Assembly (NCBI RefSeq): GCF_002210105.1
Contig: NZ_AQQU01000010.1
Span: forward strand, 62,001-126,000
DNA: 64,000 nucleotides
Direction: 5' to 3'
Source of the DNA: Oceanicola sp. 22II-s10i
GTDB taxonomy: Bacteria; Pseudomonadota; Alphaproteobacteria; Rhodobacterales; Rhodobacteraceae
This document shows, in pieces, positions 33,610 through 48,864 of this stretch (position 1 is its first letter; every line of letters begins with the position of its first letter). Position numbers and translations under genes: made by a program. Below the pieces are notes generated by a model. The model saw nothing but the letters and a program-made list of their open reading frames with translations. It was not told the origin of the DNA and did no database searches.

Positions 33610-34194
33610 CTATATGCCCGCATCCTCCATCTGCTCCCGATCCGGCAGGTCGCCAAGGCTTTCCAGCCCGAAGGCGACGAGGAACTGCTCGGTGGTGACG
33701 AACGTATAGGGCGCGCCGCGTCGAGGGGACCGGGGCCCGGTGCCGATCAGGCCGCGCGCGTGCAGTCGCCCGATCAGGTCGCGGCTGATCTCACGCCCGA
33801 AGATGTCCTTCAGCCCGTCGCGGGTGATCGGCTGGCGGTAGGCGATGGCGGCCAGGACCGCGACGTCGAATTCACTCAGGGCCGGCACCTGGTCCCCGAC
33901 ATCCGCGGCGGCGCGGATCGCGGGCGCATAGGCGGTCCGTGTCCGGAACATCCAGCCACCCGCGACCTGAACGATCTCGAAGGCCCGCCCCTCCAGATCG
34001 GCGGCGAGGTCCGCGACCAGCAGGTCGACCGAGGCCCCCTGCCCCACGACCCGCGCAAGGTCCTCGCGGGCGACCGGCGCGGCGGAGGCAAAGAGCACCG
34101 CCTCGATCCGGCGCATCCAGTCGCGCCAGCGCAGGTCCGGCGGCAGGTCGGCCAGCTCGCGGTCGAGGTCTGGCTCCGATCTGTCCTTCGCCAT
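33610..34194 (-). CDS. scpB: SMC-Scp complex subunit ScpB-like protein, plasmid type
   Basis: 194 residues with two winged-helix halves of ScpB: RRIEAVLFASAAPVAREDLARVV... and LSEFDVAVLAAIAYRQPITRDGLKDIFGREISRDLIGRLHARGLIGTGPRSPRRGAPYTFVTTEQFLVAFGLESLGDLP. ScpB works with ScpA and SMC in chromosome organisation, but no scpA or smc lies nearby. The gene forms a two-gene operon with DUF1403 (3 bp between them), divergent from a tyrosine recombinase. It may act in segregation or resolution of this replicon (inference). Confidence 0.85.
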   Translation of the reverse strand: MAKDRSEPDLDRELADLPPDLRWRDWMRRIEAVLFASAAPVAREDLARVVGQGASVDLLVADLAADLEGRAFEIVQVAGGWMFRTRTAYAPAIRAAADVGDQVPALSEFDVAVLAAIAYRQPITRDGLKDIFGREISRDLIGRLHARGLIGTGPRSPRRGAPYTFVTTEQFLVAFGLESLGDLPDREQMEDAGI

Positions 34195-34197
34195 CGC

Positions 34198-35082
34198 TCA
34201 GACCCCGTAGAGCCGGAAGGTGTCGCGGCCGGTCAGTTCACGGACGGCGCCGAGGTCGACCAGCCGGTCGCAGAGCCGCCGCGCGGCGCGGTCCGGCATG
34301 GGCAGGGCCGAAGGCGCGACAGCGTCTTGGGCCAGGAACATCGCGACCGCGTCGCCCGCCCCCTTCGCCCGCAGCTTCGGGGCCACCGCTGCCAGATGCG
34401 CCGCCCGGCGCGCGAGGTCGGCGGCCAGGCGCGTGGTCTCGACCGCCGGGGAGACGAGCGCGCGATGACAGGCCAGGCGAAGGTCGCCGCCTTGCCTGCG
34501 CAGGTCGGCGCGCGTCAGCCCTGTGGCCAGCAGCGGCAGGAGGTGAACCCATCCGAGGGCCTGCGCCAGGGCCGCGTCCGCGAGGATCAGCGCGGGGACT
34601 TCGCCACGCGGCACGTCGGTCAGAACCGCCTCCAGCACCATAGCGGCACGGGTCACCGGCGCCCCTGTCCCCGCCTCGAGCCAGGCGGCGATCCGGCCCG
34701 GATCGAGGCCCGGCAAGGCCCGGCCCAGGGTCTTGACCGACACCGGCCGCTCCGCCGCACGCTGCCAGGACAGGTAGATGTCTCCAGCCGGGCCGGGCAG
34801 ATCGCCGGGGCGCAGAAGGTGGACCGCGTCGCGCAGGTCCCCTGCCCGTTCCGGCCGTCCGGAAAACCCGATGCAGGCCTCCGCCGCGCGAAGCGCGCGC
34901 CGGTCCCGCAGCAAGGCTTGGGGGAGGTCATCGCGGTCCAACACAAGATGCAGGTGGTGCAACGCGGCACCCGACAAAAACGCCACATCTTCAGGGGTTT
35001 CGGGACATGCGGAGGTGACCCACGCGGGCATCCGGGCTAGCCTGTCCGTGTCGCTGACGGGATCGTGCCGGGCAAATGTCAT
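34198..35082 (-). CDS. DUF1403 family protein
   Basis: 294 residues, alanine- and leucine-rich, mostly helical. It resembles the DUF1403 family in its SGAALHHLHLVLDRDDLPQALLRDRRALRAAEACIGFSGRPERAGDLRDAVHLLRPGDLPGPAGDIYLSWQ region. The function is unknown. It is followed immediately by scpB and is divergent from the integrase-like gene across a 125 bp region holding a dif-like site. The shared setting suggests a DNA-maintenance role rather than metabolism. Confidence 0.7.
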   Translation of the reverse strand: MTFARHDPVSDTDRLARMPAWVTSACPETPEDVAFLSGAALHHLHLVLDRDDLPQALLRDRRALRAAEACIGFSGRPERAGDLRDAVHLLRPGDLPGPAGDIYLSWQRAAERPVSVKTLGRALPGLDPGRIAAWLEAGTGAPVTRAAMVLEAVLTDVPRGEVPALILADAALAQALGWVHLLPLLATGLTRADLRRQGGDLRLACHRALVSPAVETTRLAADLARRAAHLAAVAPKLRAKGAGDAVAMFLAQDAVAPSALPMPDRAARRLCDRLVDLGAVRELTGRDTFRLYGV

Positions 35083-35158
35083 GCCTGAAGCCTATATCAT
35101 CGCGGCGCTTTCCACCAGATAATAGCACAAGAACCGCCCCGCCTTGCAGTGTCATATC

Positions 35159-35187
35159 ATGTCCAATAAGTTTGCATTATCGGACAT
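35159..35187. other. dif-like inverted repeat: putative recombination site
   Basis: ATGTCCAATAA (35159-35169), a 7-base centre GTTTGCA, and TTATCGGACAT (35177-35187). The arms are 11 bp with one mismatched pair, and the inner ATAA/TTAT bases match XerCD dif sites. It lies 21 bp upstream of a tyrosine recombinase ATG, in the divergent promoter region. It may be the crossover site, an operator, or both. Confidence 0.5.
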
Positions 35188-35207
35188 TGGGGAATATCCT
35201 CCCCGAC

Positions 35208-36305
35208 ATGCCGGAAATTCCCGAGAAACCGAGTTCAGAGCCGCCACACGGGTCGTCGCACAGCGAGGGCGACGAGAGCGATCGCCCCGGCACCGAGGCG
35301 TTGACCCTGCCCTCTCATGTCGCGGGCTCCGGCACCCTCGACCGGCTGGTCGACACCGCCCGCGATTATGCCCGCGCCGCGGCCTCGGAGAACACGCTGC
35401 AGGCCTATGCAGCGGACTGGGCGCAGTTCACCCGCTGGTGCCGGATGAAGGGCGCCGCCCCCCTGCCGCCCTCACCCGAGATGATCGGGCTCTACCTCGC
35501 CGATCTCGCCTCTGGCGCGGGCCACGCCCCTGCCCTCTCGGTCACGACGATCGAACGCCGGTTGTCGGGCCTCGTCTGGAACTACGCGCAGCGCGGCCTT
35601 TCCCTCGACCGCAAGGACCGCCACATCGCCGCCGTGCTGGCCGGGATCCGGCGCCGCCACGCCCGCCCGCCCCGCCGCAAGGATGCGCTCCTGCCCGGTG
35701 ACATCCGCGCCATGGTGGCCACGCTGCCCTTTGACCTGCGCGGGATCCGCGACCGCGCGATCCTGCTTCTCGGCTATGCGGGCGGGCTCAGGCGGTCCGA
35801 GATCACCGGGCTCGACGTGCACCGCGACGACACTCCCGACAGCCGCGGCTGGATCGACATCCTTCCCGAAGGCGCCGTGCTGACCCTCGATGCCAAGACC
35901 GGCTGGCGCGAGGTCGAGGTCGGCCGTGGCTCGTCGGAGGTGAGCTGCCCGGTCCATGCCCTCGAACAGTGGCTGCACTTCGCGCGGATCGACTTTGGCC
36001 CGGTCTTCGTCGCCACCTCCCGCGATGGCAGCCGCGCCTCCGGGCCGCGGCTGAACGACCGCCATGTCGCCCGCCTGATCAAGCAGTGCGTCAAGGCGGC
36101 GGGCCTGCGTCCCGATCTGACCGACGCCGAGCGGAACAGGCTCTATTCCGGCCATTCCCTGCGCGCCGGCCTCGCCTCCTCGGCCGAGGTGGACGAGCGC
36201 CACGTCCAGCGGCATCTCGGCCACGCCTCCGCCGAGATGACCCGCCGCTACCAGCGCCACCGCGACAGGTTCAGGGTGAACCTGACAAAGGCGGCAGGGC
36301 TATAA
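35208..36305 (+). CDS. Tyrosine recombinase/integrase, Xer-like
   Basis: 365 residues from the ATG at 35208. The N-terminal SAM-like DNA-binding domain (about 45-150: TARDYARAAASENTLQAYAADWAQFTRWCR) is followed by the catalytic domain with Arg195 (GGLRRSEI), Lys230 (DAKTG), His316 and Arg319 (GHSLRAG), His339 (HLGHAS) and Tyr348. All catalytic residues are present, so it should be active. A disordered, charged N-terminal extension of about 40 residues precedes the domains. Its place beside scpB, DUF1403 and a dif-like site suggests multimer resolution of the replicon (inference). Confidence 0.88.
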   Translation: MPEIPEKPSSEPPHGSSHSEGDESDRPGTEALTLPSHVAGSGTLDRLVDTARDYARAAASENTLQAYAADWAQFTRWCRMKGAAPLPPSPEMIGLYLADLASGAGHAPALSVTTIERRLSGLVWNYAQRGLSLDRKDRHIAAVLAGIRRRHARPPRRKDALLPGDIRAMVATLPFDLRGIRDRAILLLGYAGGLRRSEITGLDVHRDDTPDSRGWIDILPEGAVLTLDAKTGWREVEVGRGSSEVSCPVHALEQWLHFARIDFGPVFVATSRDGSRASGPRLNDRHVARLIKQCVKAAGLRPDLTDAERNRLYSGHSLRAGLASSAEVDERHVQRHLGHASAEMTRRYQRHRDRFRVNLTKAAGL

Positions 36306-36476: not shown

Positions 36477-36791
36477 CTACAGGCCCGACGGGTTCCCCTC
36501 AATCTCGTCCAGCAGGTTCTGTCGCGCGTGAATGATCCGCAGGATGTCGAGGAATGCCGTCTCGTCGTCCCGGATGACGATGATATGCGCCCCGTGCGGA
36601 TGTACCCTGACCACGGGGTGCACCCAGTCCAGCCGCCGGCTGATGTTCGGGAACTCGGCCAGTAGCTCGATCTTGGCGATCAGGTCGGTCTGATACCGCA
36701 CCGCCTGTGCCCGCCCCCATTGCGCGACGCCCCGGTCGAAGATCGCGGTCAGGTCGCGGCGGGCCTGCGGACGAAACCGGTAGCCGGTCAC
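36477..36791 (-). CDS. parE: RelE/ParE family toxin
   Basis: 104 residues. The ParE-type fold pattern is seen in YRFRPQARRDLTAIFDRGVAQWGRAQAVRYQTDLIAKIELLAEFPNISRRLDWVHPVVRVHPHGAHIIVIRDDETAFLDILRIIHARQNL. It probably starts with GTG, which overlaps the antitoxin stop codon (GTGA). The family poisons gyrase or cleaves mRNA. It forms a toxin-antitoxin pair that would stabilise the replicon. The 171 bp between it and the recombinase gene holds no gene. Confidence 0.87.
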   Translation of the reverse strand: MTGYRFRPQARRDLTAIFDRGVAQWGRAQAVRYQTDLIAKIELLAEFPNISRRLDWVHPVVRVHPHGAHIIVIRDDETAFLDILRIIHARQNLLDEIEGNPSGL

Positions 36792-37036
36792 GCGCTGTCC
36801 TTGTGCCGCTCCAGCATCTCGGCGAGGAACTGTTCAGGATCGAACGCCTCGGGCGGGCCGCTGGCGATCCCTTCGTCCACCGCCTGCTGCAGCCACGCCC
36901 GCGTGGCGGCGCGGTCCTGATCGCGGCGGATCAGGTCGCGGACATAGTCGCTGGAGTTCGCATAGCGGCCGTCCTGCGTCTGCGCCTCGACCCAGTCCTT
37001 CATCTGTTGCGGCAGCGAGATGTTCATGGTGCTCAT
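36788..37036 (-). CDS. parD: ParD-type antitoxin
   Basis: 82 residues. A ribbon-helix-helix N-terminus (MNISLPQQMKDWVEAQTQDGRYANSSDYVRDLIRRDQDR) is followed by a toxin-wrapping C-terminus rich in acidic and aromatic residues. Antitoxin-first order with a 4-bp overlap to parE is typical. Autoregulation through the RHH domain is expected. The gene begins 45 bp downstream of flhB's stop, at the edge of the flagellar cluster. Confidence 0.88.
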   Translation of the reverse strand: MSTMNISLPQQMKDWVEAQTQDGRYANSSDYVRDLIRRDQDRAATRAWLQQAVDEGIASGPPEAFDPEQFLAEMLERHKDSA

Positions 37037-37081: not shown

Positions 37082-38206
37082 TCAATCTTCTTCGCGCAGG
37101 GCTGAGCCTTCGGGCGGGGTGCGGCGGATGTTGCGCTGCATGTCCATGACATAGGCGATGATCGCGGCGACGGCCTCCCAGTGTTCGACCGGGATGGTGC
37201 GGTCGATCTCGGCCACGTCGAACAGCGCGCGGGCCAGCGGGCGGTTTTCCACGATCGGCACCGCGTTGTCGCGCCCCAGACGCCGGATCTGGGCGGCCAT
37301 CAGGTCGGCCCCCTTGGCGACGCAGACCGGCGCGTCGTCGATGCCCTGTTCGTATTTCAGCGCGACGGCGAAATGGGTCGGGTTGGTCAGGATCACCGTG
37401 GCGCGCGGCACCGCCTGCGCGACCCGCTGCTGTGACCGTTCGCGGCGCTGCTGCGCCCGCTTGGCGCGGATGTGCGGATCGCCTTCGCTGTCCTTCATCT
37501 CGTCCCGGACGTCCTGCCGCGTCATCCGCTGCTTCTTGCGCCACTCGATCCGCTTCCACACCGCGTCCCCGATGGCGACCACGGCGACCAGCACCAGCAC
37601 CACGACGAGGATGCGCATGGCGTGTTGCCGTGCGATACCCGGCACCGCCTCGGGCACGACGCCCTGCACCTGCCACAGCTCGGACACCGCCTGGAACGTC
37701 ACCCAGAGCGCGATGGAGCCCACCACCAGCACCTTCACGAGGCTCTTCAGGAACTCGATCAGGTTGTTCAGGGAAAAGAGCCTTTTCAGGCCCGACATGG
37801 GGGAAATCTTGTTCAGCTTGGGCTTCAGCCGCTCGGCCGCGACGACCGTGGGGCCCTGCAGCGCCACGCCCGCCAGCGCGGCGAGGATCATGATGACCAT
37901 GACCGGCACCATCGACGTCCCGACGCCCCGCGCCAGCGCGCCGACCACGCCGCCCGCATCCGCGATGCCCTGCAGATCCTCGCCGATGGTCACGGTCCCC
38001 GCGGTCTCGAACACGCCGCGCATGGCGGCGGCCATCGGCGGCGCGATCACCGGCAGCAGGAAGGCCGTGATGACGAAAAGCGACAGGATCGAGGTGAGGT
38101 TCCCCGCTTCCCGCGATGACGGAACGTCGCCCTTCTCGCGCGCCTTCTGAAGGCGCCGCGGGGTTGGTTCTTCGGTCTTTTCGAGATCGCTGTCGCCCTC
38201 GGCCAT
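37082..38206 (-). CDS. flhB: Flagellar export switch protein FlhB
   Basis: 374 residues. A charged N-terminus (EKTEEPTPRRLQKAREKGDVPSSREAGN) is typical. Four membrane helices follow, then the cytoplasmic domain with the autocleavage site NPTH at 275-278 (ILTNPTHFAVAL). It switches export from hook/rod to filament substrates. It is the last gene of the minus-strand flagellar run. Confidence 0.95.
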   Translation of the reverse strand: MAEGDSDLEKTEEPTPRRLQKAREKGDVPSSREAGNLTSILSLFVITAFLLPVIAPPMAAAMRGVFETAGTVTIGEDLQGIADAGGVVGALARGVGTSMVPVMVIMILAALAGVALQGPTVVAAERLKPKLNKISPMSGLKRLFSLNNLIEFLKSLVKVLVVGSIALWVTFQAVSELWQVQGVVPEAVPGIARQHAMRILVVVLVLVAVVAIGDAVWKRIEWRKKQRMTRQDVRDEMKDSEGDPHIRAKRAQQRRERSQQRVAQAVPRATVILTNPTHFAVALKYEQGIDDAPVCVAKGADLMAAQIRRLGRDNAVPIVENRPLARALFDVAEIDRTIPVEHWEAVAAIIAYVMDMQRNIRRTPPEGSALREED

Positions 38207-38215
38207 ACCGCCCCC

Positions 38216-38971
38216 CTAGAAGGTCAGCAGGCCGAGCCATTCGCCGAACCTTTCGGCGAATTCGCGCAGCATGTAGGGGCTGGCGATCGTCAGCACGATC
38301 AGCCCCGAAACGATCAGCACCGGCCCCGCGACGAAGAACACCGGCAGGTTCGGCATCATCCTGTTGGTCAGGCCCAGCCCGAGGTTCAGCAGGATGCCCA
38401 TCACGTAGAACGGCGCGGCGATGGACATTCCGAGGTAGAAGCTCTGGCCGGTGGCGCGGACGATCTGCTGGGACAGGTCGCCGGGCATGAGCGCCCCGGC
38501 CGGGAAGATCTGGTAGGACATCGCCATCGCCCCGATGATGACGTGGTGCAGGTCGGTGGCGAATATCACCGCCACGCCCCCCAGCATCAGCCCGGTCGAG
38601 ATCAGGGTCGAGCCCTGGAACGACCCCATCGAAGGCGCGAAGGCGTTGGACAGGGACGAAATCAGGCCGACCTGGTAGCCGGCGAACTGCAGCCCGGTCA
38701 GCAGGATGCGCCCGACCATGCCGATCCAGACCCCGATGGTCACCTCGATCGCCAGCGCGCCGGCCAGCTGGCCGAAGGTGTCGAACCGGATCGGCCCCTG
38801 CACGCCCGTCGCGTAGATCACCAGCGCCAGCACGATGGCCATGGCCAGCCGGTGGCGGACGGGGATGAAGGCCTCGCCGAAGGCCGGGATGAACATCAGT
38901 ATCCCGCCGATCCGCGCAAAGACGAGCGCCGCGCCCAGGAACTCGGCGGTCAGGAGCGGCGCGATGTTCAC
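38216..38971 (-). CDS. fliR: Flagellar export gate protein FliR
   Basis: 251 residues with about six membrane helices. FliR features are ARIGGILMFIPAFGEAFIPVRHRLAMAIVLALV, VGRILLTGLQFAGYQVGLISSLSNAF and LGLTNRMMPNLPVFFVAGP. It starts with GTG one base after the flhA stop. It is part of the FliPQR-FlhB gate. Confidence 0.93.
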   Translation of the reverse strand: MNIAPLLTAEFLGAALVFARIGGILMFIPAFGEAFIPVRHRLAMAIVLALVIYATGVQGPIRFDTFGQLAGALAIEVTIGVWIGMVGRILLTGLQFAGYQVGLISSLSNAFAPSMGSFQGSTLISTGLMLGGVAVIFATDLHHVIIGAMAMSYQIFPAGALMPGDLSQQIVRATGQSFYLGMSIAAPFYVMGILLNLGLGLTNRMMPNLPVFFVAGPVLIVSGLIVLTIASPYMLREFAERFGEWLGLLTF

Positions 38972-38972
38972 C

Positions 38973-41066
38973 TCAGGCCCCGATCGTCGCGACGGTGCGC
39001 AGCGACACCTTGCGGTGGATCTCGCTGTGCGACAGCACGACCGTCATCGGGCTGACCCGTTCCAGCATCGACCGGACGAAACTCCGGACCTCGGGGCTGA
39101 CCAGCAGGGCGGGCCATTCGTCCCGCTCGGCAAAGGTCTGGATCGCCTTGCGCGCCTCCAGCACGAATTCCTGCACCCGCTGCGGCGACATGACGAAGTT
39201 GCGCTCGTCCCCTGTCACCCGCAGCGCGTCGAGGAACTCCTTTTCCCACGACCCGGACATGGTGATGACGCTGACGAAACCGGTGTGATCGACCAGGCTC
39301 TTGCAGATCTGGTTGGACAGCCGCCGCCGCACCGTTTCGGTGATCATCATCACGTTCGACGTGCTGCGCTTGGCCTCGGCGATGGCCTCGACGATCAGGG
39401 GCAGGTTGCGGATCGAAACCCGCTCGGCCAGCAGCGCCTGCAGGACGTGCTGGATCAGCACGATGGGGGCATTGCCGGGGATCTCGTTGGCCAGCTTCTG
39501 GTATTCGCGGTCCATGCCCTCGATCAGCGCCTGCGCGGCGCCGTAGGTCATCAGCTCGGGCAGGTGTTCCTTGACCACCTCGGTCAGGTGCGTGGTGATG
39601 ACGCTTTCCGGGTCCACCACCGTCAGCCCCTGCGCCTCGGCCTGCGCGACAAAGCGCGGATCGACCCAGAGCGCGTCCAGCCCGAAGGTCGGATCCTTGG
39701 CCCGTTCGCCCGGAATCGAGACGTCGCCGGGGTTCACGATCATCATCTGCATCGGCCGCACCTCGCCGCGCGCGACCTCGACCCCCTGCACCCGCAGGGC
39801 GTAGGTCCGGGCGGGCAGGATCGCCTCGTCCTTGATCCGGACGGAGGGCAGGACAAAGCCGAATTCGCGGGCAAAGAGGTTGCGCAGGCTCTTGATCTTG
39901 CCGGCCAGCGCGGTGTCCGGGTTCTCGATCAGCGGGACCAGCGCCTCGCCCAGCTCCAGCTTGAGATCGTCGAGCTTGAGCGTGTCCTTGACGTTGTCCT
40001 TGGGCGCGTTCGCCTCGGCATTCGCCTTGGCCGCCTCGGCCCGCGCGGCGTTGCGGGCACTGGCCTGCGCCTGTTTCTGCATCACCCGGCCCAGACCGAC
40101 CATCAGCAGCGACATGAAGCCGAACAGCAGCGCCGGGAAGCCCGGCAGCAGGCCGATCCCGAACAGCAGCGCGGCGGCCATGTAGAGCGCCTTGGGGAAC
40201 TTCGACAGCTGGCCGAGGACCGCCTCGTTCGCCGCGCCCTCGGTCCCGCCCTTGGTCACGATCAGGCCCGCGGCCATCGACACGATCAGCGCGGGGATCT
40301 GGCTGACCAGACCGTCGCCGATGGTCAGGACGGTGTAGTTGTTCGCCGCCTGCCCCACGGTCAGACCGTGCTGCATGATGCCGATCAGGATGCCGCCGAT
40401 CACGTTGATCAGGGTGATGATGATGCCCGCCACCGCGTCGCCGCGCACGAACTTGGACGCACCGTCCATCGCGCCGAAGAACCCGCTTTCGTCCTCCAGC
40501 TCCTTGCGGCGCTTGCGGGCCTGTTCCTCGTCGATCAGGCCCGCGCCGAGGTCGGCGTCGATCGCCATCTGCTTGCCGGGCATGGAGTCGAGCGAGAAGC
40601 GGGCCGAAACCTCGGCGATCCGGGTCGACCCCTTGGTGATCACGATGAAGTTGATGACCACGAGGATGATGAAGACGACGATCCCGATGACGAAACTGCC
40701 GGACACCATGAACCGCGAAAAGCCTTCGATCACGCCGCCGGCCGCATGGGTGCCGGTGTGGCCTTCGGACAGGATCAGGCGGGTCGAGGCGACGTTCAGC
40801 GACAGCCGCAGCATGGTCACGACCAGCAGCAGCGTCGGGAAGGAGTTGAACTCCAGCGGTCTGGGGATCCACAGCGCGACCATCAGGATCAGCACCGAGA
40901 CCGACAGGGACACGGCCAGGCCGAAGTCGAGGATCATCGGCGGCAGCGGCACGAACAGCACCGCCAGAACCAACGTCACGCCGATGGCAAAGCCGACGTC
41001 CCGGTTGGCAAAGCCATGCGCCAGCCAGTTCGGCAGGCCCGTGGTGTTGGTGGTCTGGTCCGCCAT
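38973..41066 (-). CDS. flhA: Flagellar export gate protein FlhA
   Basis: 697 residues. The N-terminal half has about eight membrane helices. The FHIPEP signature is present as RIAEVSARFSLDSMPGKQMAIDADLGAGLIDEEQARKRR. The cytoplasmic C-terminal half has the nonameric-ring domains (PSVRIKDEAILPARTYALRVQGVEVARGEV). It binds chaperone-substrate complexes and couples the proton-motive force to export. It lies between fliR and a lytic transglycosylase gene. Confidence 0.95.
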   Translation of the reverse strand: MADQTTNTTGLPNWLAHGFANRDVGFAIGVTLVLAVLFVPLPPMILDFGLAVSLSVSVLILMVALWIPRPLEFNSFPTLLLVVTMLRLSLNVASTRLILSEGHTGTHAAGGVIEGFSRFMVSGSFVIGIVVFIILVVINFIVITKGSTRIAEVSARFSLDSMPGKQMAIDADLGAGLIDEEQARKRRKELEDESGFFGAMDGASKFVRGDAVAGIIITLINVIGGILIGIMQHGLTVGQAANNYTVLTIGDGLVSQIPALIVSMAAGLIVTKGGTEGAANEAVLGQLSKFPKALYMAAALLFGIGLLPGFPALLFGFMSLLMVGLGRVMQKQAQASARNAARAEAAKANAEANAPKDNVKDTLKLDDLKLELGEALVPLIENPDTALAGKIKSLRNLFAREFGFVLPSVRIKDEAILPARTYALRVQGVEVARGEVRPMQMMIVNPGDVSIPGERAKDPTFGLDALWVDPRFVAQAEAQGLTVVDPESVITTHLTEVVKEHLPELMTYGAAQALIEGMDREYQKLANEIPGNAPIVLIQHVLQALLAERVSIRNLPLIVEAIAEAKRSTSNVMMITETVRRRLSNQICKSLVDHTGFVSVITMSGSWEKEFLDALRVTGDERNFVMSPQRVQEFVLEARKAIQTFAERDEWPALLVSPEVRSFVRSMLERVSPMTVVLSHSEIHRKVSLRTVATIGA

Positions 41067-41069
41067 CGC

Positions 41070-41870
41070 CTAGAACATCCTGCGGAAGGCGGGCAGCACC
41101 GGTTCCAGCGTGCCGCGGGCATAGAGGCTGCGCGCCCCCTGCCCCGCGCCGCCGTCCGGCCCGGCCAGCCATGCGGTCCAGAAATGGCCCTGCGGCAGCG
41201 GTTCGCGCGGGATGGGGGCGGGCGCGCCCTGCCCTGCCCCGGCGGCGGCCGAGGCCATCATGCGGAACTCTTCCAGCCGCTCGTTGGCGATGCCCACGTT
41301 GGTGCGCAGGCGGTCGAGGTAGATCTTCTGGTATTCCTGCGTCGCCGAGTGATAGCGCCCGGCGGCGGCCACCCAGTCCCCGGTGTCGCGATAGAGCGAA
41401 ACCAGCAGCCGCGCGGCATAATCCACGTTGCGCGCCGGATCGAACCCCTCGGCCAGCGTGTCGAAGGCGTCGGGGTGCCAGCGCAGGTTGATCTGCATGC
41501 AGCCCACGTCGACCGAGGCGATGCCCGAGGACAGGCGGTCCTGCACCCATTCCATCGCCTCGCCGGGGCCGCCGAAATAGCGGCCGTCGCCCTCGGCATT
41601 GGCGACCCATGGCCAGACGGTCAGATCGCCGTCCTTCATCATCCCCGCCTCCTGCAACCCGATACCGAGCAGCAGGTTGCCGGGGATCTGGTGGCGCAGC
41701 TGCGCGCGCAGGATCTCGTTCAGGCAGATGCCCCGCGGGTCCGTCGCGGCGACGGCGCGCGCCGCCGGCTCGGGCCGGGCGGAGGGCGTGTAAAAGCCCC
41801 GCCAGTCGGCAAGGGCCCCCTGCCCCGCCAGCAGCAGAACAGTCACGGATACGGCGAAACTCCGCATCAT
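41070..41870 (-). CDS. Lytic transglycosylase-like protein with signal peptide, flagellar
   Basis: 266 residues. A signal peptide (RSFAVSVTVLLLAGQGALA) is followed by an SLT-like domain: IPGNLLLGIGLQEAGM with a probable catalytic glutamate, ASVDVGCMQINLRWHPDAFDTLAEGFDPARNVDYAARLLVSLYRDTGDWVAAAGRYHSATQ. It would cleave peptidoglycan so the rod can pass the cell wall, as SltF-type enzymes do in some alphaproteobacteria. It overlaps fliQ by 4 bp and ends 3 bp before flhA. Confidence 0.85.
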   Translation of the reverse strand: MMRSFAVSVTVLLLAGQGALADWRGFYTPSARPEPAARAVAATDPRGICLNEILRAQLRHQIPGNLLLGIGLQEAGMMKDGDLTVWPWVANAEGDGRYFGGPGEAMEWVQDRLSSGIASVDVGCMQINLRWHPDAFDTLAEGFDPARNVDYAARLLVSLYRDTGDWVAAAGRYHSATQEYQKIYLDRLRTNVGIANERLEEFRMMASAAAGAGQGAPAPIPREPLPQGHFWTAWLAGPDGGAGQGARSLYARGTLEPVLPAFRRMF

Positions 41871-42136
41871 GTGCCCCCGCTGACGATCAGGTCGAACACG
41901 GTGTCCGACAGACCCTTGACGGTCGCATACATGAACGGGAGGAAGATCAGCAGCCCCACGAAGATCGCCACGATCTTGGGCACGAAGGTCAGGGTCATCT
42001 CCTGCACCTGCGTCAGGGCCTGGAAGAACGCGATGAACAGCCCGACGACGAGCGCGATCGCCATGATCGGCCCGGCCGCGAACAGCACCGTCTGGAAGGA
42101 TTCAGACAGGATCGAATAGGTATCCGCTTCGGTCAC
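41867..42136 (-). CDS. fliQ: Flagellar export gate protein FliQ
   Basis: 89 residues, normal length, two membrane helices (TVLFAAGPIMAIALVVGLFIAFFQALTQVQEMTLTFVPKIVAIFVGLLIFLPFMYATV). The TQVQEMTLTFVPK loop is characteristic. It is followed by the transglycosylase gene through ATGA overlap. Confidence 0.94.
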   Translation of the reverse strand: MTEADTYSILSESFQTVLFAAGPIMAIALVVGLFIAFFQALTQVQEMTLTFVPKIVAIFVGLLIFLPFMYATVKGLSDTVFDLIVSGGT

Positions 42137-42155
42137 TGCTGCACCCTTGCCGTCC

Positions 42156-42485
42156 TCAGATCGGCATTCTCATGATTTCCTGGTAGGCCTCGACCAGCTT
42201 GTCCCGGACCGTGACGGCGACCTTGACGGTCGTGTCCAGTTCCAGCGTCGCCTCGACCACCGTCTGCGTCTCGATATCGCCGCGCATCCCGGCCTGGGTC
42301 ACCTGCTCGGCCTGCCGGATCGTCTGGACCGCCTCGGCGCCGGCATCCTTGATCATGTCGGCGAACGAGGACGTCCGCTCCTGCACCGGCAGTTCCGGTG
42401 CGGGCAGGTTGACCTGCATGTCGCGCGAGCTGCGGTAGGCGCCGCTGACGGCAGAGTTGGAAATCAGTGTGGATGTTTCAGACAT
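42156..42485 (-). CDS. fliE: Flagellar hook-basal body protein FliE
   Basis: 109 residues. FliE C-terminal features are SFADMIKDAGAEAVQTIRQAEQVTQAGMRGDIETQTVVEATLELDTTVKVAVTVRDKLVEAYQEIMRMPI. It joins the MS ring to the rod. Its place between flgC and fliQ matches the flgBC-fliE order common in proteobacteria. Confidence 0.93.
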   Translation of the reverse strand: MSETSTLISNSAVSGAYRSSRDMQVNLPAPELPVQERTSSFADMIKDAGAEAVQTIRQAEQVTQAGMRGDIETQTVVEATLELDTTVKVAVTVRDKLVEAYQEIMRMPI

Positions 42486-42496
42486 GGCTCAAAATC

Positions 42497-42907
42497 CTAT
42501 TTCAAAAGGTCGAGCAGCTGCGTCCGCATCCGCCGCCCGGCTTCAAACATGTTCAGATTGGCTTCGTAGCTGCGCGAGGCCTCGCGCATGTTGCTCATTT
42601 CCAGAATGGTCTGGACGTTCGACACCTTGATGAACCCCAGCTCGTCCGCGGCCGGGTGGCCGGGGTCGTAGCGCAGTTCGAACTCGGCATCGTCGCGGGA
42701 AATATCCGCCACACGCACCATCGACGCGCCGCTTTCGCGGTCGATCATCTCTTCGAAGGAAATCACCTTGCGGCGATAGGGCTCCTGCCCCGGCTCGGTC
42801 CCGGTCGAGGCCGAGTTGGCCACGTTTTCCGACACCACCTTGAGCCGCTCGCCCTGCGCCCGCATCCCGCTGGCGGCGATGGAAAGAATGCTGTTCAAAT
42901 TATCCAT
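42497..42907 (-). CDS. flgC: Flagellar basal-body rod protein FlgC
   Basis: 136 residues. The rod/hook N-terminal motif SILSIAASGMRAQGERLKVVSENVANSAS and the C-terminal helix VSNVQTILEMSNMREASRSYEANLNMFEAGRRM are clear. It is a proximal rod component exported by the flagellar apparatus. Its gene sits 12 bp after flgB. Confidence 0.94.
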   Translation of the reverse strand: MDNLNSILSIAASGMRAQGERLKVVSENVANSASTGTEPGQEPYRRKVISFEEMIDRESGASMVRVADISRDDAEFELRYDPGHPAADELGFIKVSNVQTILEMSNMREASRSYEANLNMFEAGRRMRTQLLDLLK

Positions 42908-42919
42908 GACGCGCGCCCC

Positions 42920-43330
42920 TTACCGGACCCCGGTCACGGCCAGCGTCAGCAGGTCGTGACCCTTGCGATACAGCGCCGCGGCCATGCGGTAGCTTTCCGA
43001 AACCTCGACCGCCGTGATCGACTGTTCCTCGAGCGCGACGGTGTTGCCGTCGAGGCTCTGCTCCCAGCTTTCCGTTTCCTGCACCCGGATACCATTCGGC
43101 GCGGAGGTCCCGCCGGCGCCGGTCATGTGCCGGGCATCGGTCGTCCTCAGCCCGCTCGACGCGGTGCTGCGGGCACCGCCCAACATTTCATCAAAGCCCG
43201 AGACATCCTTGGCCTTGAACCCCGGCGTGTCGGCGTTCGCGATGTTCTGCGTGATGACAGCCTGCCGGGTCCCCAGCCAGCGCATCCGCTGGGAAGCCAA
43301 ACTAAAAAATGACATTCCATCAAGTTTCAT
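42920..43330 (-). CDS. flgB: Flagellar basal-body rod protein FlgB
   Basis: 136 residues from the ATG at 43330, chosen because AAGGAAA precedes it and the N-terminus then matches FlgB length (FFSLASQRMRWLGTRQAVITQNIANADTPGFKAKDVSGF). A longer frame reaching into fliI is rejected. The C-terminal helix is TAVEVSESYRMAAALYRKGHDLL. It is the first gene of the minus-strand flagellar operon, divergent from fliI with 67 bp between them. Confidence 0.93.
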   Translation of the reverse strand: MKLDGMSFFSLASQRMRWLGTRQAVITQNIANADTPGFKAKDVSGFDEMLGGARSTASSGLRTTDARHMTGAGGTSAPNGIRVQETESWEQSLDGNTVALEEQSITAVEVSESYRMAAALYRKGHDLLTLAVTGVR

Positions 43331-43384
43331 TGCAGGTTTCCTTTTGATGCGAACAAGGATAGCATGAATAAATCGGATAACACA

Positions 43385-43399
43385 ATGGATAGTATCCAT
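43385..43399. promoter_or_regulatory. Palindrome ATGGATA-G-TATCCAT over the fliI start
   Basis: A perfect 7-bp dyad around one base covers the fliI ribosome site and the first bases of its ATG (43398). Two further GGATA copies lie upstream in the 67 bp flgB-fliI gap (near 43354 and 43373). It may be an operator shared by the divergent flagellar genes or an RNA hairpin limiting fliI translation. Confidence 0.45.
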
Positions 43400-44753
43400 G
43401 CATACCGCTTTTTCGGAACTTGCAAGCGCCACCCGCAACCTTGAACGCACCCATGTGACGGGTCAGGTGCGGGCCGCGCTCGGTCTGGTGTTGACCGTCG
43501 CGGGGCTGGAACGCGCCGTCGGGATCGGGTCGCGCTGCGTGGTGCAGGGGCGCAAGGGCCCCGTGCTGGCCGAAGTGGTGGGGATCGACGAAGCCGGGAC
43601 GCGCCTGCTGCCCTACGGTTCGTGGGAGGGGATCATGACCGGCGATGCCGTGGTCGTGACCCAGGCAGGCGACGAAATCAGACCCGATGACGCCTGGATC
43701 GGGCGGGTGATGGATGCGCTTGGCCGTCCGCTCGATGGCCTCGGTAAGCTGCCCGAGGGGCCGACCCCGCACAGCCTGCGCGCCGCGCCCCCGCCCGCGT
43801 TCCAGCGGCGCCGGGTCGGCGAACGGCTGGACACCGGGGTCAAGGTGATGGACGTGTTCACCCCGATCTGCCAGGGCCAGCGGATGGGGGTCTTTGCCGG
43901 ATCAGGCGTCGGGAAATCGACGCTGATGTCCATGCTCGCCCGGAACGCGCAGGCGGACGTGATCGTCGTCGGCCTCGTCGGTGAACGCGGACGCGAGGTG
44001 CAGGACTTCCTGCAGGACGATCTGGGCGAGGACGGGCTGGCGCGCTCCGTTGTCATCGTCTCGACCGGGGACGAACCGCCGCTGATGCGCCGGCAGGCCG
44101 CCTGGACCGCGACCGCCGTGGCAGAGTATTTCCGCGATCAGGGCAAGCAGGTGCTGCTGCTGATCGACAGCGTGACCCGTTTCGCCATGGCGCAGCGCGA
44201 GATCGGGCTGGCCGGGGGCGAGCCGCCGACCGCCAAGGGCTATCCGCCGACGATCTTTGCCGAGCTGCCGCGGATGATGGAACGCGCCGGGCCGGGGACG
44301 GCCGAGAACGGCGACATCACCGCGCTCTACACGGTGCTGGTCGATGGCGATGACATGGACGACCCGATCGCCGACGCAGTGCGCGGGATCATGGACGGGC
44401 ACATCGTGCTGGACCGGCGGATTGCCGAAACCGGACGCTTCCCGGCGGTGAACCTGCTGCGCTCGGTGTCTCGGATGCTGCCGGACTGCCATTCCCCGGC
44501 GGAGTATTCGGTCTACCGCGCCGCCCGCCGCGCAATCGCCCGCTACACCGATATGGAAGAACTGATCCGCATTGGTGCCTATCGCGAAGGGACGGATGCC
44601 GAGGTGGACAGCGCGATCCGGTTCAACGGCCCCGCCGATACCTTCCTGACGCAGGGCAAGCGCGAGGCCTCGCCTTCGGGGGAAAGTTTCCTCGGGATTC
44701 ACCAGTGCCTGACGGGTGCGGGGATCAAGGTCGATATTCCGCCAGCCGAGTGA
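43398..44753 (+). CDS. fliI: Flagellum-specific export ATPase FliI
   Basis: 451 residues. Walker A GSGVGKST lies at 168-175, followed by VIVVGLVGERGREVQDFLQDDLG, Walker B LLLIDSVTRFAMAQREIGLAGGEPP and the C-terminal helical domain. It powers unloading of substrates at the export gate. It diverges from flgB and runs toward repC. Its usual partner fliJ is not downstream; a fliJ-like gene lies beyond repABC. Confidence 0.95.
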   Translation: MHTAFSELASATRNLERTHVTGQVRAALGLVLTVAGLERAVGIGSRCVVQGRKGPVLAEVVGIDEAGTRLLPYGSWEGIMTGDAVVVTQAGDEIRPDDAWIGRVMDALGRPLDGLGKLPEGPTPHSLRAAPPPAFQRRRVGERLDTGVKVMDVFTPICQGQRMGVFAGSGVGKSTLMSMLARNAQADVIVVGLVGERGREVQDFLQDDLGEDGLARSVVIVSTGDEPPLMRRQAAWTATAVAEYFRDQGKQVLLLIDSVTRFAMAQREIGLAGGEPPTAKGYPPTIFAELPRMMERAGPGTAENGDITALYTVLVDGDDMDDPIADAVRGIMDGHIVLDRRIAETGRFPAVNLLRSVSRMLPDCHSPAEYSVYRAARRAIARYTDMEELIRIGAYREGTDAEVDSAIRFNGPADTFLTQGKREASPSGESFLGIHQCLTGAGIKVDIPPAE

Positions 44754-44765
44754 CCGGTGGGGCGA

Positions 44766-44781
44766 GTTGACAGCTGTCAAC
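44766..44781. repeat. parS-like centromere palindrome 1
   Basis: GTTGACAGCTGTCAAC, a perfect 16-bp palindrome (18 bp with the flanking A and T). It fits the GTTNNNNGCNNNNAAC form known for RepABC partition sites bound by RepB. It lies 13 bp after fliI. Identical copies are at 44837 and 46019. Confidence 0.85.
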
Positions 44782-44836
44782 TTTGCCCCGCCTGGGCTCC
44801 CTGCCCCGCGCTTTCCACCGGCCCCGGCCACCCCGA

Positions 44837-44852
44837 GTTGACAGCTGTCAAC
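44837..44852. repeat. parS-like centromere palindrome 2
   Basis: A second exact copy of GTTGACAGCTGTCAAC, two bases beyond the repC stop codon and 71 bp (centre to centre) from copy 1. The shared flanks (GAGTTG...CAACTTT) suggest duplication of the site. Confidence 0.85.
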
Positions 44853-44854
44853 TT

Positions 44855-45970
44855 TCACGCCGACCGCGCCTGCATGGATCGCACCAGCGTTTCCGGTGAA
44901 AACCCGCCCTCGCCCGCCTTCCGCGCCAGCGTCCTCAGGTAAGCCCCCGGCGACCGTATCGCCCCAATTCTCTGCACGATGGCCGCGACAGTGACAGAGG
45001 CGCCGACGGGCCCCATGAGCCGACACGCCTCCCGCCAAGTTGCAACATCCACGCCGGACATGGGCGCAAGCCCCGCCATCAACCGCGTGAAGTCCTCCCA
45101 GCTTCTGACCGGCCTTACCGCGTAGGGCAGGACATCGGGGCAGGCGTTCAGCACGCCTCGCAGGTCGATATCCAGCGGCCTTTCAGATTCAATAAGGGTT
45201 TTGTCTGAGTCCTGTTTGTGCCGCTCATTTTCGCTGTCACAGGCGCTCAGTTCGATCGTCTCGACAGGCTTGTCCACCTCGGGCCGGACCTCGTCCGTGA
45301 CACGCTCCACAAGCGCCCTCAGCCGGTCGCGCAGCCCGATCAGGTCAACCTCGTCCAGCCTGCGCCGCAGGTCGCGACGGATCAGCCGGCTGGCATCGAA
45401 CAGTGCGTCGCTACCGGCGAACTCGGCCAGCTTCTCGGCATCGCGCAGCAGCAGGATGACCTCCTCGCGCAGCAGGACACAGCGGGCGGCCACGGCCTCC
45501 ACCTGCCGCGCCTCACGCGCGATCTCGGCCGAGCGCACCAGCAGCGGCCTCAGGTCGAAGCCGAAGGCACGCACGACCTCGCCACCCGATCCGGTGCGGG
45601 CATAGCGCTTGCCGTTCGGGCTGTCGTGGCGGGCGATCATCCCGGCCTCCACCAATGCGGCGAGGTGGCGGCGGAGCGTGCTGTCCGGCATCCCGTGGGC
45701 CCGTTCCGACAGCCGCGCGTTCGAGGCGAAGACGATCAGCGAAGCGCCGTCGGTCAGTTCACGCTCGCGGTGAAAGCTCAGCAGGACCTGCAGGACCGAG
45801 AGCGTCCGGTGGCCGAGGCCAAAGGCGCTGGCGGCGGTGGTGAGATCGTCGAGAACCTGCCATTTGTCCACGCCGGGGCAGGGGGCGGGGCGTGCGGCAA
45901 GGGCGGTCAGTTTCACCTGACCAGCCGTCACCGGCCGCCGCCCGAAGGGCGTCGTTGTCACTGTCGTCAT
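44855..45970 (-). CDS. repC: Plasmid replication initiator RepC
   Basis: 371 residues from the ATG at 45970. The N-terminal winged-helix region has FGLGHRTLSVLQVLLSFHRERELTDGASLIVFASNARLSERAHGMPDSTLRRHLAALVEAGMIARHDSPNGKRYARTG, the RepC signature. A charged middle and a C-terminal DNA-binding part follow. RepC starts replication; in this family the origin lies within repC. A longer frame from 46033 would read through a parS copy and lacks a ribosome site, so it is rejected. Confidence 0.93.
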   Translation of the reverse strand: MTTVTTTPFGRRPVTAGQVKLTALAARPAPCPGVDKWQVLDDLTTAASAFGLGHRTLSVLQVLLSFHRERELTDGASLIVFASNARLSERAHGMPDSTLRRHLAALVEAGMIARHDSPNGKRYARTGSGGEVVRAFGFDLRPLLVRSAEIAREARQVEAVAARCVLLREEVILLLRDAEKLAEFAGSDALFDASRLIRRDLRRRLDEVDLIGLRDRLRALVERVTDEVRPEVDKPVETIELSACDSENERHKQDSDKTLIESERPLDIDLRGVLNACPDVLPYAVRPVRSWEDFTRLMAGLAPMSGVDVATWREACRLMGPVGASVTVAAIVQRIGAIRSPGAYLRTLARKAGEGGFSPETLVRSMQARSA

Positions 45971-46018
45971 CGTGATGATACCGGGCAAAACTTTTCGGCC
46001 CGCCGGACGGTGACCGGC

Positions 46019-46034
46019 GTTGACAGCTGTCAAC
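46019..46034. repeat. parS-like palindrome 3, overlapping the ctRNA -35 box
   Basis: The third exact GTTGACAGCTGTCAAC, in the 192 bp repB-repC gap. Its TTGACA (46020-46025) is a consensus -35 for a plus-strand promoter, so RepB bound here could block the counter-transcribed RNA. Confidence 0.8.
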
Positions 46035-46049
46035 TTGAGCGGCTAGATT
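46020..46049 (+). promoter_or_regulatory. Promoter of the repABC counter-transcribed RNA
   Basis: TTGACA (46020-46025) and TAGATT (46044-46049) are separated by 18 bp. It reads opposite to repABC and points into the repB-repC gap toward repB. Expected start of transcription is near 46056. Confidence 0.65.
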
Positions 46050-46055
46050 CGAAGT

Positions 46056-46104
46056 GCGAAAACGAACAGGCCTCTCGGGATGTCATGTCCTGGGGGGCTT
46101 TTTC
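46056..46104 (+). ncRNA. Counter-transcribed RNA (ctRNA) of the repABC operon
   Basis: Predicted RNA of about 50 bases, antisense to the repABC transcript between repB and repC. It ends in a strong terminator: GCCTCTCGGGA (46070-46080) pairs with TCCTGGGGGGC (46088-46098) over a 7-base loop, then TTTTT. Such ctRNAs limit repC expression and set copy number and incompatibility. The prediction rests on promoter, hairpin and position. Confidence 0.7.
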
Positions 46105-46162
46105 TTGTGCTCTGCCTCTGTCGGTCCTCCTGTCTGCTGCTGCTCCCTCGGCCCCACCGGGC

Positions 46163-47104
46163 CTATTCGCCGCGCGCCTTTTTCCAGTCGCGGTGAATCT
46201 CTGCGATGTTCTCGATCAGCCAGTCCTCGAACCCGCCGCTTTCGTCGGCGTCGAAGGTCAGCGTCGTCCTTTTCCCGGCCTTCTTCGCCCGCGCCACGAC
46301 GGTGTCGCCCGCCTTCAGCTCCCTCGGCTGCTTTTTCGGGGCAGGGGGGGCGGCGGGTTTCGCGGTGATGATGGCAAAGGCCTGTTCGAACCGGGCGTCC
46401 GAGGTGTCGGCGTCCAGACCGCGCGCGATCTCGGGCACGAGGTCGGTGAACTGCGGCATATGCTCGGCCAGTTTCATCCAGCGGTCACGTCCGGCGGAGG
46501 GCGCGGGCCCGATGGCGCGCATCAGCTTGACCGGGACGGCCTCGGCCACCGCCAGCATCCGGGAAATGAGCGTCTTGTCGATGTTCAGCGCGTCGCAGAC
46601 GACCTTGCGCTCGAAACTCGCCTCGACCATCTGGCGGGCGAAGTTGGCCTTTTCGATAAAGGTCAGATCGCGGCGCTGGCTGTTTTCCTGCCCCTGCGCG
46701 ACGATCAGGTCGCGGTCGTTGATGTCGCGGATCATCGCCTTGACCGGCTGCTTCAGCGCCTTGAGCGCGGCGACACGGCGGCGGCCATAGACGACCTGGT
46801 AGCGGCCTTCGGTGTTCGGATCGAAGCGCAGCAGCACAGGCACCTGCTGGCCATAGGTCGCCAGCGAGTCCTTCAGCCGCTCGAAGTCCTCGGGATCCTC
46901 GCCCAGCCGGTCCTTGAAGCCGGCATCGTCGATCATGTCGGCATGCACCTCGACCATCGCGCGGCTTTTCAGCTGGGCGATGGACTGGCTGACGGCGCCG
47001 ATCGCGCCCTTGGTGTAGGTCGGGCGCGGGGCAGGGGCCTCGGCCTCCTTGCGGGGCGCGTCCTGCCCCTCCATCAGACCGGAAAGCAGGTTCTTGCGTG
47101 CCAT
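46163..47104 (-). CDS. repB: Plasmid partitioning protein RepB (ParB family)
   Basis: 313 residues. The ParB N-terminal nuclease-like domain (LATYGQQVPVLLRFDPNTEGRYQVVYGRRRVAALKAL, with the GxRR motif) and the HTH part (TFIEKANFARQMVEASFERKVVCDALNIDKTLISRMLAVAEAVP) are clear. It binds the parS-like palindromes and partners RepA. The ATG at 47104 follows the repA stop by one base. Confidence 0.94.
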   Translation of the reverse strand: MARKNLLSGLMEGQDAPRKEAEAPAPRPTYTKGAIGAVSQSIAQLKSRAMVEVHADMIDDAGFKDRLGEDPEDFERLKDSLATYGQQVPVLLRFDPNTEGRYQVVYGRRRVAALKALKQPVKAMIRDINDRDLIVAQGQENSQRRDLTFIEKANFARQMVEASFERKVVCDALNIDKTLISRMLAVAEAVPVKLMRAIGPAPSAGRDRWMKLAEHMPQFTDLVPEIARGLDADTSDARFEQAFAIITAKPAAPPAPKKQPRELKAGDTVVARAKKAGKRTTLTFDADESGGFEDWLIENIAEIHRDWKKARGE

Positions 47105-47105
47105 G

Positions 47106-48278: not shown

Positions 48279-48298
48279 GGCCTTCTGCCCTCTTGCCC

Positions 48299-48317
48299 AA
48301 AGCGTTTGTTACGCTTT
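48299..48317. promoter_or_regulatory. Inverted repeat AAAGCGT-TTGTT-ACGCTTT upstream of repA
   Basis: Perfect 7-bp arms around five bases, 20 bp before the repA ATG and inside the AT-rich promoter stretch (48301-48350). It is the likely RepA (with RepB) autorepression site. The remainder of the 157 bp gap to the fliJ-like gene shows no gene. Confidence 0.6.
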
Positions 48318-48435
48318 ATGTCGTTTTATTGGCTTTTCTCCGTAATTGAATGCCGCGCTTTGCAGATTCGGGCAAGGGGAATCTGCCACATCTGGTAGGG
48401 CGCGTTGCAATCAGACACTAATGCGCCGCGATCGA

Positions 48436-48864
48436 CTAGCCCTTCCACCGCTGGCGCGCGACCTCGTCCATTTCGGCGGCCTCACGCTTCTTCTCGGCAT
48501 GGCGCAGCTCGGCCATGCGGCTAAGGCGCAGAATTTCATAGGTTTTCTGTTCCGCAAGCGCCGAACGCAGCGCATCCTCGGCCTTGTTCAGGCCGGGGCG
48601 CAGGGTCGCCATCTCGGAGGAAATGCGTTCGATCTCGGCCCGGATCGAGCGGATGAAGCGGCCCAGGTAGATGGCGCCTTCGACGCCTTCGACATGTGAC
48701 TCACCCGAAATCCGCTGTATCAGGGTCTCTTTCTCGGCCTCGAGCTGGGTCATCTTGCCGCGAATCTGACCGGCGGCGCGGGCCTTTTCCTCGGTCTCCA
48801 GCCGCTTGACGCGTTCCATGATGTCCAGCGCCCGGATCCGCCTCCGGTCGGCGTCAGTGGCCAT
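48436..48864 (-). CDS. FliJ-like flagellar coiled-coil protein
   Basis: 142 residues, almost entirely charged alpha-helix with heptad pattern (RVKRLETEEKARAAGQIRGKMTQLEAEKETLIQRI; EQKTYEILRLSRMAELRHAEKKREAAEMDEVARQRW). Length and layout fit FliJ, the stalk-like partner of FliI. It overlaps the preceding small gene by 11 bp and ends toward repA. The assignment depends on coiled-coil form and flagellar context rather than a strict motif. Confidence 0.65.
   Translation of the reverse strand: MATDADRRRIRALDIMERVKRLETEEKARAAGQIRGKMTQLEAEKETLIQRISGESHVEGVEGAIYLGRFIRSIRAEIERISSEMATLRPGLNKAEDALRSALAEQKTYEILRLSRMAELRHAEKKREAAEMDEVARQRWKG

Follow-up and report, generated by a model that had tools for sequence, protein, structure and literature searches.

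Results

A Plasmid Module Built around an Inverted Repeat

We analyzed a stretch of 64,000 nucleotides from Oceanicola sp. 22II-s10i (hereafter the window; G000:C2:62001-126000, from a source assembly of 5.1 Mb in 39 contigs), in which three genes and a short inverted repeat form a compact module. On the minus strand lie a gene for a DUF1403 protein (34198-35082; PF07183, E 2.8e-97) and, 3 bases past its stop, a gene for a plasmid-type ScpB (33610-34194; PF04079, E 1.1e-35). Divergent from this pair, on the plus strand, is a gene for a Cre-like tyrosine recombinase (35208-36305; PF00589, E 1.9e-14), whose start we took as 35208 because it is common to relatives; the longest open reading frame (ORF) begins at 35076. 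Between them lies the repeat, a candidate crossover site that we call the core (35159-35187). Its arms (35159-35169 and 35177-35187) are 91% complementary and enclose a 7-base center (35170-35176), giving an 11-7-11 layout. The leader of DUF1403 (35083-35158) measures 76 bases from start codon to core, a fixed length, and is a probable accessory binding region. Per-base conservation picks out two blocks in it: the first, conserved as GCGGCGCTTT across 80 distinct left flanks, at 35102-35111, and the second, AACCGCC, roughly the inverse of the first, at 35132-35138. An earlier sequence-only reading of this DNA had proposed a replicon-resolution module here. The three genes and the inverted repeat are present as it described, and the observation proved stronger than stated; the distance of 21 bp that it gave between repeat and recombinase needs correction, since the repeat ends 20 bases ahead of the ATG at 35208.

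In the PLSDB collection, DUF1403 is matched in 482 plasmid records, and in 299 of them a match at a single place covers 80% or more of the query. Annotated plasmids of Paracoccus, Phaeobacter and Dinoroseobacter carry replication genes near the recombinase, DUF1403 and ScpB, and the same neighborhood is annotated in Afipia, Bradyrhizobium, Methylosinus and a Ti plasmid. Among sampled genomes, DUF1403 was matched in 84 of 394 Rhodobacteraceae (78 above the cut-off) and in 4 of 385 from the class (3 above the cut-off, the source genome among them). We gathered 125 loci, of which 123 hold DUF1403 by tblastn (L008 and L009 were dropped); some are alike or belong to one replicon (L013 and L072; L024 and L151, which are one place; L026 and L150, which have the same spacer). 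ScpB follows DUF1403 in all 123 loci, and a recombinase lies opposite DUF1403 within 4 kb in 102. Replication genes accompany the module: tblastn found one in 65 of the 80 loci taken from genome contigs, such genes lie within 8 kb in 49 of the 51 loci having full 8-kb flanks, and of the 50 loci showing RepC, 48 have it on the same side as the recombinase. With the core also kept in place, this co-occurrence marks the genes and the repeat as one conserved unit. The supposed pairing of DUF1403 with ScpB is supported as well, in that DUF1403 travels with a ScpB of the plasmid type.

The Core Is Kept at a Fixed Distance from DUF1403

The window contains the core pattern a single time, where shuffled sequences predict 0.01 occurrences. 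The source genome has three DUF1403 genes, on C2, C10 and C16. Across the whole assembly, and allowing up to 3 mismatches, the core pattern is found at two places, which are the DUF1403 loci on C2 and C16; the locus on C10 has a core copy with a 6-bp center, outside the reach of the search pattern. Of 116 close loci, 105 yielded a core; this count, like the flank-identity, per-base conservation, distance-correlation and breakpoint analyses, excludes loci L039-L045. The distance between core and DUF1403 start is 76 bp in 103 of these 105, and 103 of the 105 pass a filter for a 7-bp center. The two blocks in the leader are about as conserved as the core itself. The core recurs in Hyphomicrobiales, some of which have, as read by eye, GTGCGGTT and AACCGCAC at the second accessory block.

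We also examined 16 distant loci, using a search that favored core-like letters. A core-like inverted repeat with a 7-bp center is present in 15 of them (7 to 10 of 10 inner arm positions paired), and in 12 of the 16 it lies 74-77 bp from the annotated DUF1403 start. The same search found no core-like repeat in L045, where DUF1403 is truncated. Orthologous recombinases do have the repeat conserved beside them, as the sequence-only reading had required of its proposal; the claimed likeness of the repeat to dif is slight only.

A search of the 394 family genomes with up to 2 mismatches found 98 cores in 72 genomes, and a reversed control pattern gave none among the matches listed. Within 400 bp upstream of DUF1403 lie 82 of the 98, all 82 in the same orientation. 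Core and DUF1403 are both present in 67 genomes, the core only in 5, DUF1403 only in 11 and neither in 311. One contig carries two cores and every other contig carries one. Thirteen of the 16 other cores were inspected: a recombinase or its remnant lies nearby at 7, DUF1403, tniQ or RepC sequence was found at 4, and none of the queried genes at 2. Loci L164 and L165 share a contig (G517:C12), 82.8 kb from each other, and have identical cores, both with RepC; they are perhaps the overlapping ends of one circular plasmid.

Sixty distinct cores show paired changes in the two arms, clearest at pairs 2, 4 and 5. Mean arm pairing is 0.853, against 0.819 (standard deviation 0.007) in column shuffles, and with kinship uncontrolled none of 2000 shuffles reached as high a value. 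A promoter scan of 34950-35350 found no consensus promoter there, and we do not claim that the core holds the -35 box of the recombinase.

Identity between Related Plasmids Breaks at the Core

Comparison of the flanks in 103 anchored loci revealed joints at the core. In 26 pairs, identity reaches 95% or more over the 75 bp to the left and stays below 65% over the 40 bp to the right; 35 pairs are at least 95% identical on the right and less than 75% on the left; and 18 pairs are identical on both sides, the pairs sharing loci and the unlike side in some including the start of a transposon 27 bp off. Averaged over all pairs, identity is 42% in the right flank, 63% in the left flank and 90% in the core.

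The clearest such joint is that of the Dinoroseobacter shibae plasmids pDSHI01 and pDSHI03. Over 23,603 bases, counted from the DUF1403 start to where the compared stretch stops, they show no mismatch, nor is there one in the 105 bases ahead of that start; identity stops at the outer edge of the core. Past this edge the two recombinase proteins share 74% identity, and the annotated repABC genes are not alike; blocks of 78-91% identity reappear farther away. Duplication and recruitment of a new RepABC module have been reported for these sister plasmids, according to the consulted part of PMC5513947 (see also PMC4886583).

Protein distances and breakpoints were computed after loci identical in both proteins had been merged (87 to 73 loci). 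The correlation of distances (rho, 300 permutations) is 0.62 within halves of one gene and 0.53 between DUF1403 and ScpB; it is 0.20 between DUF1403 and the recombinase, and 0.12 between their adjacent halves. Within 8 informative columns of the core fall 17 of the 29 strongest breakpoints versus 2.3% by chance, in pairs that are not independent. Taken together, these sequence comparisons give good support to the conclusion that the core is a crossover site where related plasmids appear to have exchanged halves. This exchange between plasmids, seen in natural sequences, had not been foreseen by the sequence-only reading.

Among Solved Structures, Cre Stands Nearest to the Recombinase

A profile search of the PDB returned Cre as the best relatives (E 7.2e-11), with XerD at 2.4e-6. 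The recombinase falls far below the cut-offs for XerC (53.9 vs 335.15 bits) and XerD (42.6 vs 329.6 bits), and the description of it as Xer-like gives way to a Cre-like one. Residues R196, K230, H316, R319, H339 and Y348, which we take by motif to be the catalytic set, are kept in 92 of the 92 loci that have a near-full-length recombinase (of 116).

Two departures were noted. On the Ruegeria TM1040 megaplasmid (L044 4933-5793), the annotated recombinase is without its catalytic C-terminal part and a core-like site remains. In L002, L060, L086 and L081, the recombinase match begins only with residue 18, and its gap to DUF1403 (754-756) exceeds the usual one by about 630 bp, which suggests that the extra stretch is an insertion.

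DUF1403 Probably Has a Fic-Type Fold and a DNA-Binding Tail

The DUF1403 protein probably ends in a helix-turn-helix (winged helix): HTH_13 is matched by 12 of 14 DUF1403 members at E up to 1 (best E 1e-4), the window protein lying below the cut-off. A first structural model had a predicted local distance difference test (pLDDT) score of 59.7 and gave no significant Foldseek matches; in a fold comparison its first 15 rows were all Fic, with Z up to 8.8. We also modeled a DUF1403-ScpB read-through protein, for which pLDDT averages 73 over residues 1-290 and, by blocks, about 77 over residues 31-290. The 15 top rows were again all Fic, led by a Shewanella Fic protein (3zcn; Z 18.0, 267 residues aligned, root mean square deviation 4.4), and rows of unrelated folds begin at Z 6.7, in a model of moderate confidence. 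The best Foldseek E for this model was 1.2e-3. Its ScpB part is poor, and the model is therefore uninformative on contact between DUF1403 and ScpB.

The Fic motif is missing. In its strict form (HxFx[DE][AG]N[KG]R) it was found in 0 of 116 DUF1403 loci and 0 of 14 members, the control giving 3 of 3, and in a relaxed form it was found in 1 of 116 loci. Profile comparison with true Fic proteins gave a local alignment of the C-terminal part at E 0.15; as this match is weak, the relation to Fic is drawn from the folds. These models make DUF1403 a probable pseudoenzyme of Fic fold whose tail would bind DNA. At two loci (L006 9888-11006 and L039 1927-3042), a genuine Fic protein, bearing an HPFEDGNGR motif, is encoded directly downstream of DUF1403-ScpB.

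Other relatives were sought. An identity as a ScpA-like kleisin was set aside after profile comparison with the ScpA of the genome (E 0.15, probability 0.4%), a distant relation being conceivable, and comparison with a ScpB profile gave nothing (E 0.52). The PDB holds no sequence relative of DUF1403 at E up to 1. A phage origin was likewise set aside when one scan of viral contigs gave no relative. DUF1403 is not mentioned in the open-licence papers searched, outside which most subscription papers fall.

The Module ScpB Forms a Group of Its Own

The window protein belongs to the ScpB family (PF04079, 123.1 bits, cut-off 27.4) and misses the cut-off of the NCBIfam ScpB equivalog (84.8 vs 89.2 bits). 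In a tree, 21 module ScpBs from Rhodobacterales, Hyphomicrobiales and Rhodospirillales separate as one group from 25 other ScpBs of the class with support of 100/100; the tree is unrooted, so that the group is one side of a branch, the bootstrap is unsettled and two rows are long. The tree excludes L200, fragments and a single weak row. The comparison proteins come from 25 genomes and are taken as chromosomal, a location proven, through ScpA, for C7. The source genome has four ScpB genes and a single ScpA gene, which lies on C7 beside the ScpB there; a search of the whole genome placed no ScpA on the window's contig. The statement that this ScpB has neither ScpA nor SMC with it thus holds for ScpA on this replicon; SMC was not searched for.

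Tn402-Like Type A Elements Lie 26-28 bp from the Core

Elements that have genes like those of Tn402/Tn5053 and the end TGTCGTTTTAGTTT, which we call type A, adjoin the core. Two loci were tested for transposition domains, L049 (type A) and L085, and both have TniA, TniB and TniQ domains (Mu-transpos_C/rve, TniB, TniQ). A first set comprised 12 type A elements, 11 at 27 bp from the core and one at 28; with each place counted once there are 16 places, 14 at 27 bp, one at 26 and one at 28. The 12 distinct 27-bp spacers have a mean identity of 40% and form 9 clusters at 70%. Because the spacers are so dissimilar, insertion seems to be guided by distance and not by sequence, and several insertions were independent. 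In the 394 genomes, with up to 3 mismatches, the type A end has six occurrences. Five stand beside a core, four of them at a distance of 27 bp and the fifth at 26 bp, and the sixth is located at a contig end. A second transposon type lies 41-52 bp from the core at 7 loci, two of them alike and one inside a type A end.

Of the 5-bp target duplication looked for at these elements, matching flanking repeats were seen in L095 (type B). In the five type A loci with both ends seen (L049, L051, L068, L088 and L115), the 5-bp flanks differ. The first four of these carry a core-like sequence (ATGTCCGATAATGAAACTATAATCC or close) near the right end of the element, and recombination at this sequence, present near one end in four of the five, may have reshuffled the flanks. 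A type A transposon may in this way use the plasmid recombinase to resolve its own cointegrates, and its placement would be accounted for if it sensed the recombinase at the core. For res-hunting transposons, the consulted part of PMC7765201 describes use of the resolvase that belongs to the target site.

A tniQ gene runs right up to the ScpB end of the module in L040, L159 and L163, which are plasmids of Agrobacterium, Rhizobium and Roseibium. Either a Tn402-like element also lies on the ScpB side there, or the module is carried by one.

The Replicon and Neighboring Genes

A gene for the replication initiator RepC (44855-46033, minus strand) lies on the window's contig and supports its being a plasmid; the PF03428 match spans 45416-45937 (G000:C2:107416-107937). 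RepB-like and RepA-like ORFs, named by position and by the look of their sequences, lie upstream of it on the same strand (46163-47131 and 47106-48278). The source genome has five RepC genes, three of them on the contigs that bear DUF1403. A ParDE-type toxin-antitoxin pair (36477-37036) immediately adjoins the recombinase, and flagellar genes flank repABC (37082-50076), placing a flagellar cluster on a RepABC replicon; FlhB was called by Pfam, and FliR-, FlhA-, FliI- and MotA-like ORFs by their look.

Discussion

We consider it likely that the module is a plasmid-borne, Cre-like site-specific recombination system that acts at the 29-bp core and resolves multimers, with DUF1403 and ScpB as an accessory complex. 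The sequences themselves supply its basis, namely the conserved unit, its fixed geometry, the near-symmetric core with paired arm changes, the joints, the attachment to replication genes and the separate group of plasmid-type ScpBs. From these we infer which protein binds where, that multimers are resolved and what DUF1403 and ScpB contribute. The sequence-only reading is supported in part, its unit and conserved site being seen in the sequences and its proposed roles in multimer resolution and in organizing plasmid DNA being hypotheses.

In the mechanism that we propose, the recombinase would bind the two arms of the core, and strands would be exchanged within the 7-bp center, where cutting presumably occurs. 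Since a second core is almost never present on a contig that has one, the everyday task of the recombinase would probably be the resolution of plasmid multimers. The paired blocks of the leader, which lie between the core and the DUF1403 start codon, are the probable binding sites of DUF1403. Together with its dedicated ScpB, DUF1403 would make up an accessory complex that controls the timing of recombination or the choice of sites; ScpB, held on DUF1403 or bridging two complexes, would confer the selectivity. Where co-resident plasmids have matching cores, the side with the recombinase and replication genes could be exchanged against the side with DUF1403, ScpB and cargo. Exchange of this kind would be a by-product of resolution, used in evolution to swap replication modules. 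A more far-reaching version we advance only tentatively: the dead Fic-fold DNA binder and the plasmid ScpB might act as a topological gate, perhaps via host SMC, such that the Cre-like recombinase resolves multimers within one plasmid and the exchange of replication modules between co-resident RepABC plasmids is permitted, with a transposon family specialized in finding the recombinase complex.

Several observations weigh against a multimer resolution system with an accessory complex. No recombinase lies within 4 kb in 21 of the 123 loci, 15 of which have less than 4 kb of sequence there and 6 of which have more. The strict core is absent from 30 of 112 DUF1403 rows (second fragments and most rows below the cut-off were left out of this comparison), and 57% of distinct cores lack pairing at arm position 7. 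Distances of ScpB and the recombinase correlate at rho 0.34, above the value for DUF1403 and the recombinase, and the latter value of 0.20 itself exceeds shuffles (p 0.007); coupling across the core is thus weak, not absent. At lower LR thresholds, 18 of 64 breakpoints (LR >20) and 18 of 95 (LR >15) lie within 8 columns of the core, which means that recombination occurs elsewhere too. The joints indicate exchange between plasmids, not the resolution of multimers. The D. shibae plasmids carry a second recombinase near the module, annotated 'recombinase family protein', which we take as serine-type and which could share in resolution or do it. The Fic fold of DUF1403 rests on a model of moderate confidence, and DUF1403 and ScpB could serve another plasmid function.

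This last point amounts to a rival explanation, in which DUF1403-ScpB is a separate plasmid-maintenance operon, for example one loading host SMC for partition, that stands outside the recombination reaction. We take this to be a real if doubtful possibility. The recombinase side is swapped at the core while DUF1403-ScpB stays, so that partners need not match, and ScpB belongs to the condensin family; however, the fixed 76-bp spacing and the conserved blocks tie the DUF1403 leader to the core. It is improbable, in our judgment, that the inverted repeat is mainly an operator for the divergent genes, bound by the recombinase or by DUF1403, and that the joints stem from ordinary homologous recombination. 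The repeat does lie between two divergent genes, and breakpoints elsewhere in the module exist. Yet with flanks averaging 42% and 63% on either side of a core at 90%, about 29 bp would be left for homologous recombination; moreover, in D. shibae the identity breaks off precisely at the edge of the core, and the scanned region has no consensus promoter.

Very unlikely, finally, is a recombinase that serves as the integrase of a mobile element with attachment sites elsewhere, the core being one past attachment joint. Its superfamily includes integrases, and 7 of the 13 inspected cores have a recombinase and no adjacent DUF1403. Against this, plasmids from two orders and many genera have the core at one set position, with the recombinase to one side and DUF1403 to the other, and the 3-mismatch pattern finds no further core copy in the source genome. 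We accordingly retain recombination at the core, with DUF1403 and ScpB as accessory factors, as the preferred explanation.

Known systems share parts of this design. Cre/loxP of the phage-plasmid P1 likewise combines a single tyrosine recombinase (Cre being the closest solved relative), symmetric arms, a short center and a low-copy plasmid setting. Its site is 13-8-13, whereas the core here is 11-7-11 and comes with a divergent DUF1403-ScpB operon and conserved accessory blocks; nor do the scanned viral contigs hold a relative of DUF1403. Systems of the XerCD cer/psi type have a core and adjacent accessory DNA at fixed spacing, with ArgR and PepA as helpers. The spacing is shared; the recombinase here falls far below the XerC and XerD cut-offs. 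With the SMC-ScpA-ScpB condensin the module shares the ScpB family, and it differs in having its ScpB in a separate tree group with no ScpA on the window's contig. We rate the system as Cre-like plasmid recombination with a putative new accessory pair.

The nearest described setting is also a repABC plasmid. On Sinorhizobium meliloti pSmeLPU88b, a Cre-like tyrosine recombinase downstream of repABC has been linked to plasmid maintenance via concatemer resolution; there it accompanies a toxin-antitoxin pair, and the consulted part of the paper names no site, DUF1403 or ScpB (PMC10194956). According to the same portion, RinQ of a Rhizobium etli repABC plasmid is also a site-specific recombinase beside repABC, but of the invertase/resolvase (serine) family (PMC10194956). 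The DUF1403-ScpB-recombinase module was not found in the consulted parts of PMC13386836 and PMC4447125, and the open-licence papers searched, which leave most subscription papers outside, have no mention of repABC, a tyrosine recombinase and ScpB together.

These findings bear on how Alphaproteobacterial plasmids evolve, RepABC being their most abundant replicon type according to the consulted part of PMC5613091. In the D. shibae sister plasmids, uptake of another replication module has been reported, with no mechanism given in the part of PMC5513947 consulted; a defined 29-bp joint makes a mechanism for swapping replication modules directly testable. Insertion of Tn402-like elements at a fixed distance beside a tyrosine-recombinase site would widen res-hunting, which is known, as far as the consulted source describes it, for the res sites of resolvases. 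DUF1403, found in 482 plasmid records, gains a context and a probable fold. Overall, these data suggest a role for plasmid ScpB genes apart from chromosome condensation.

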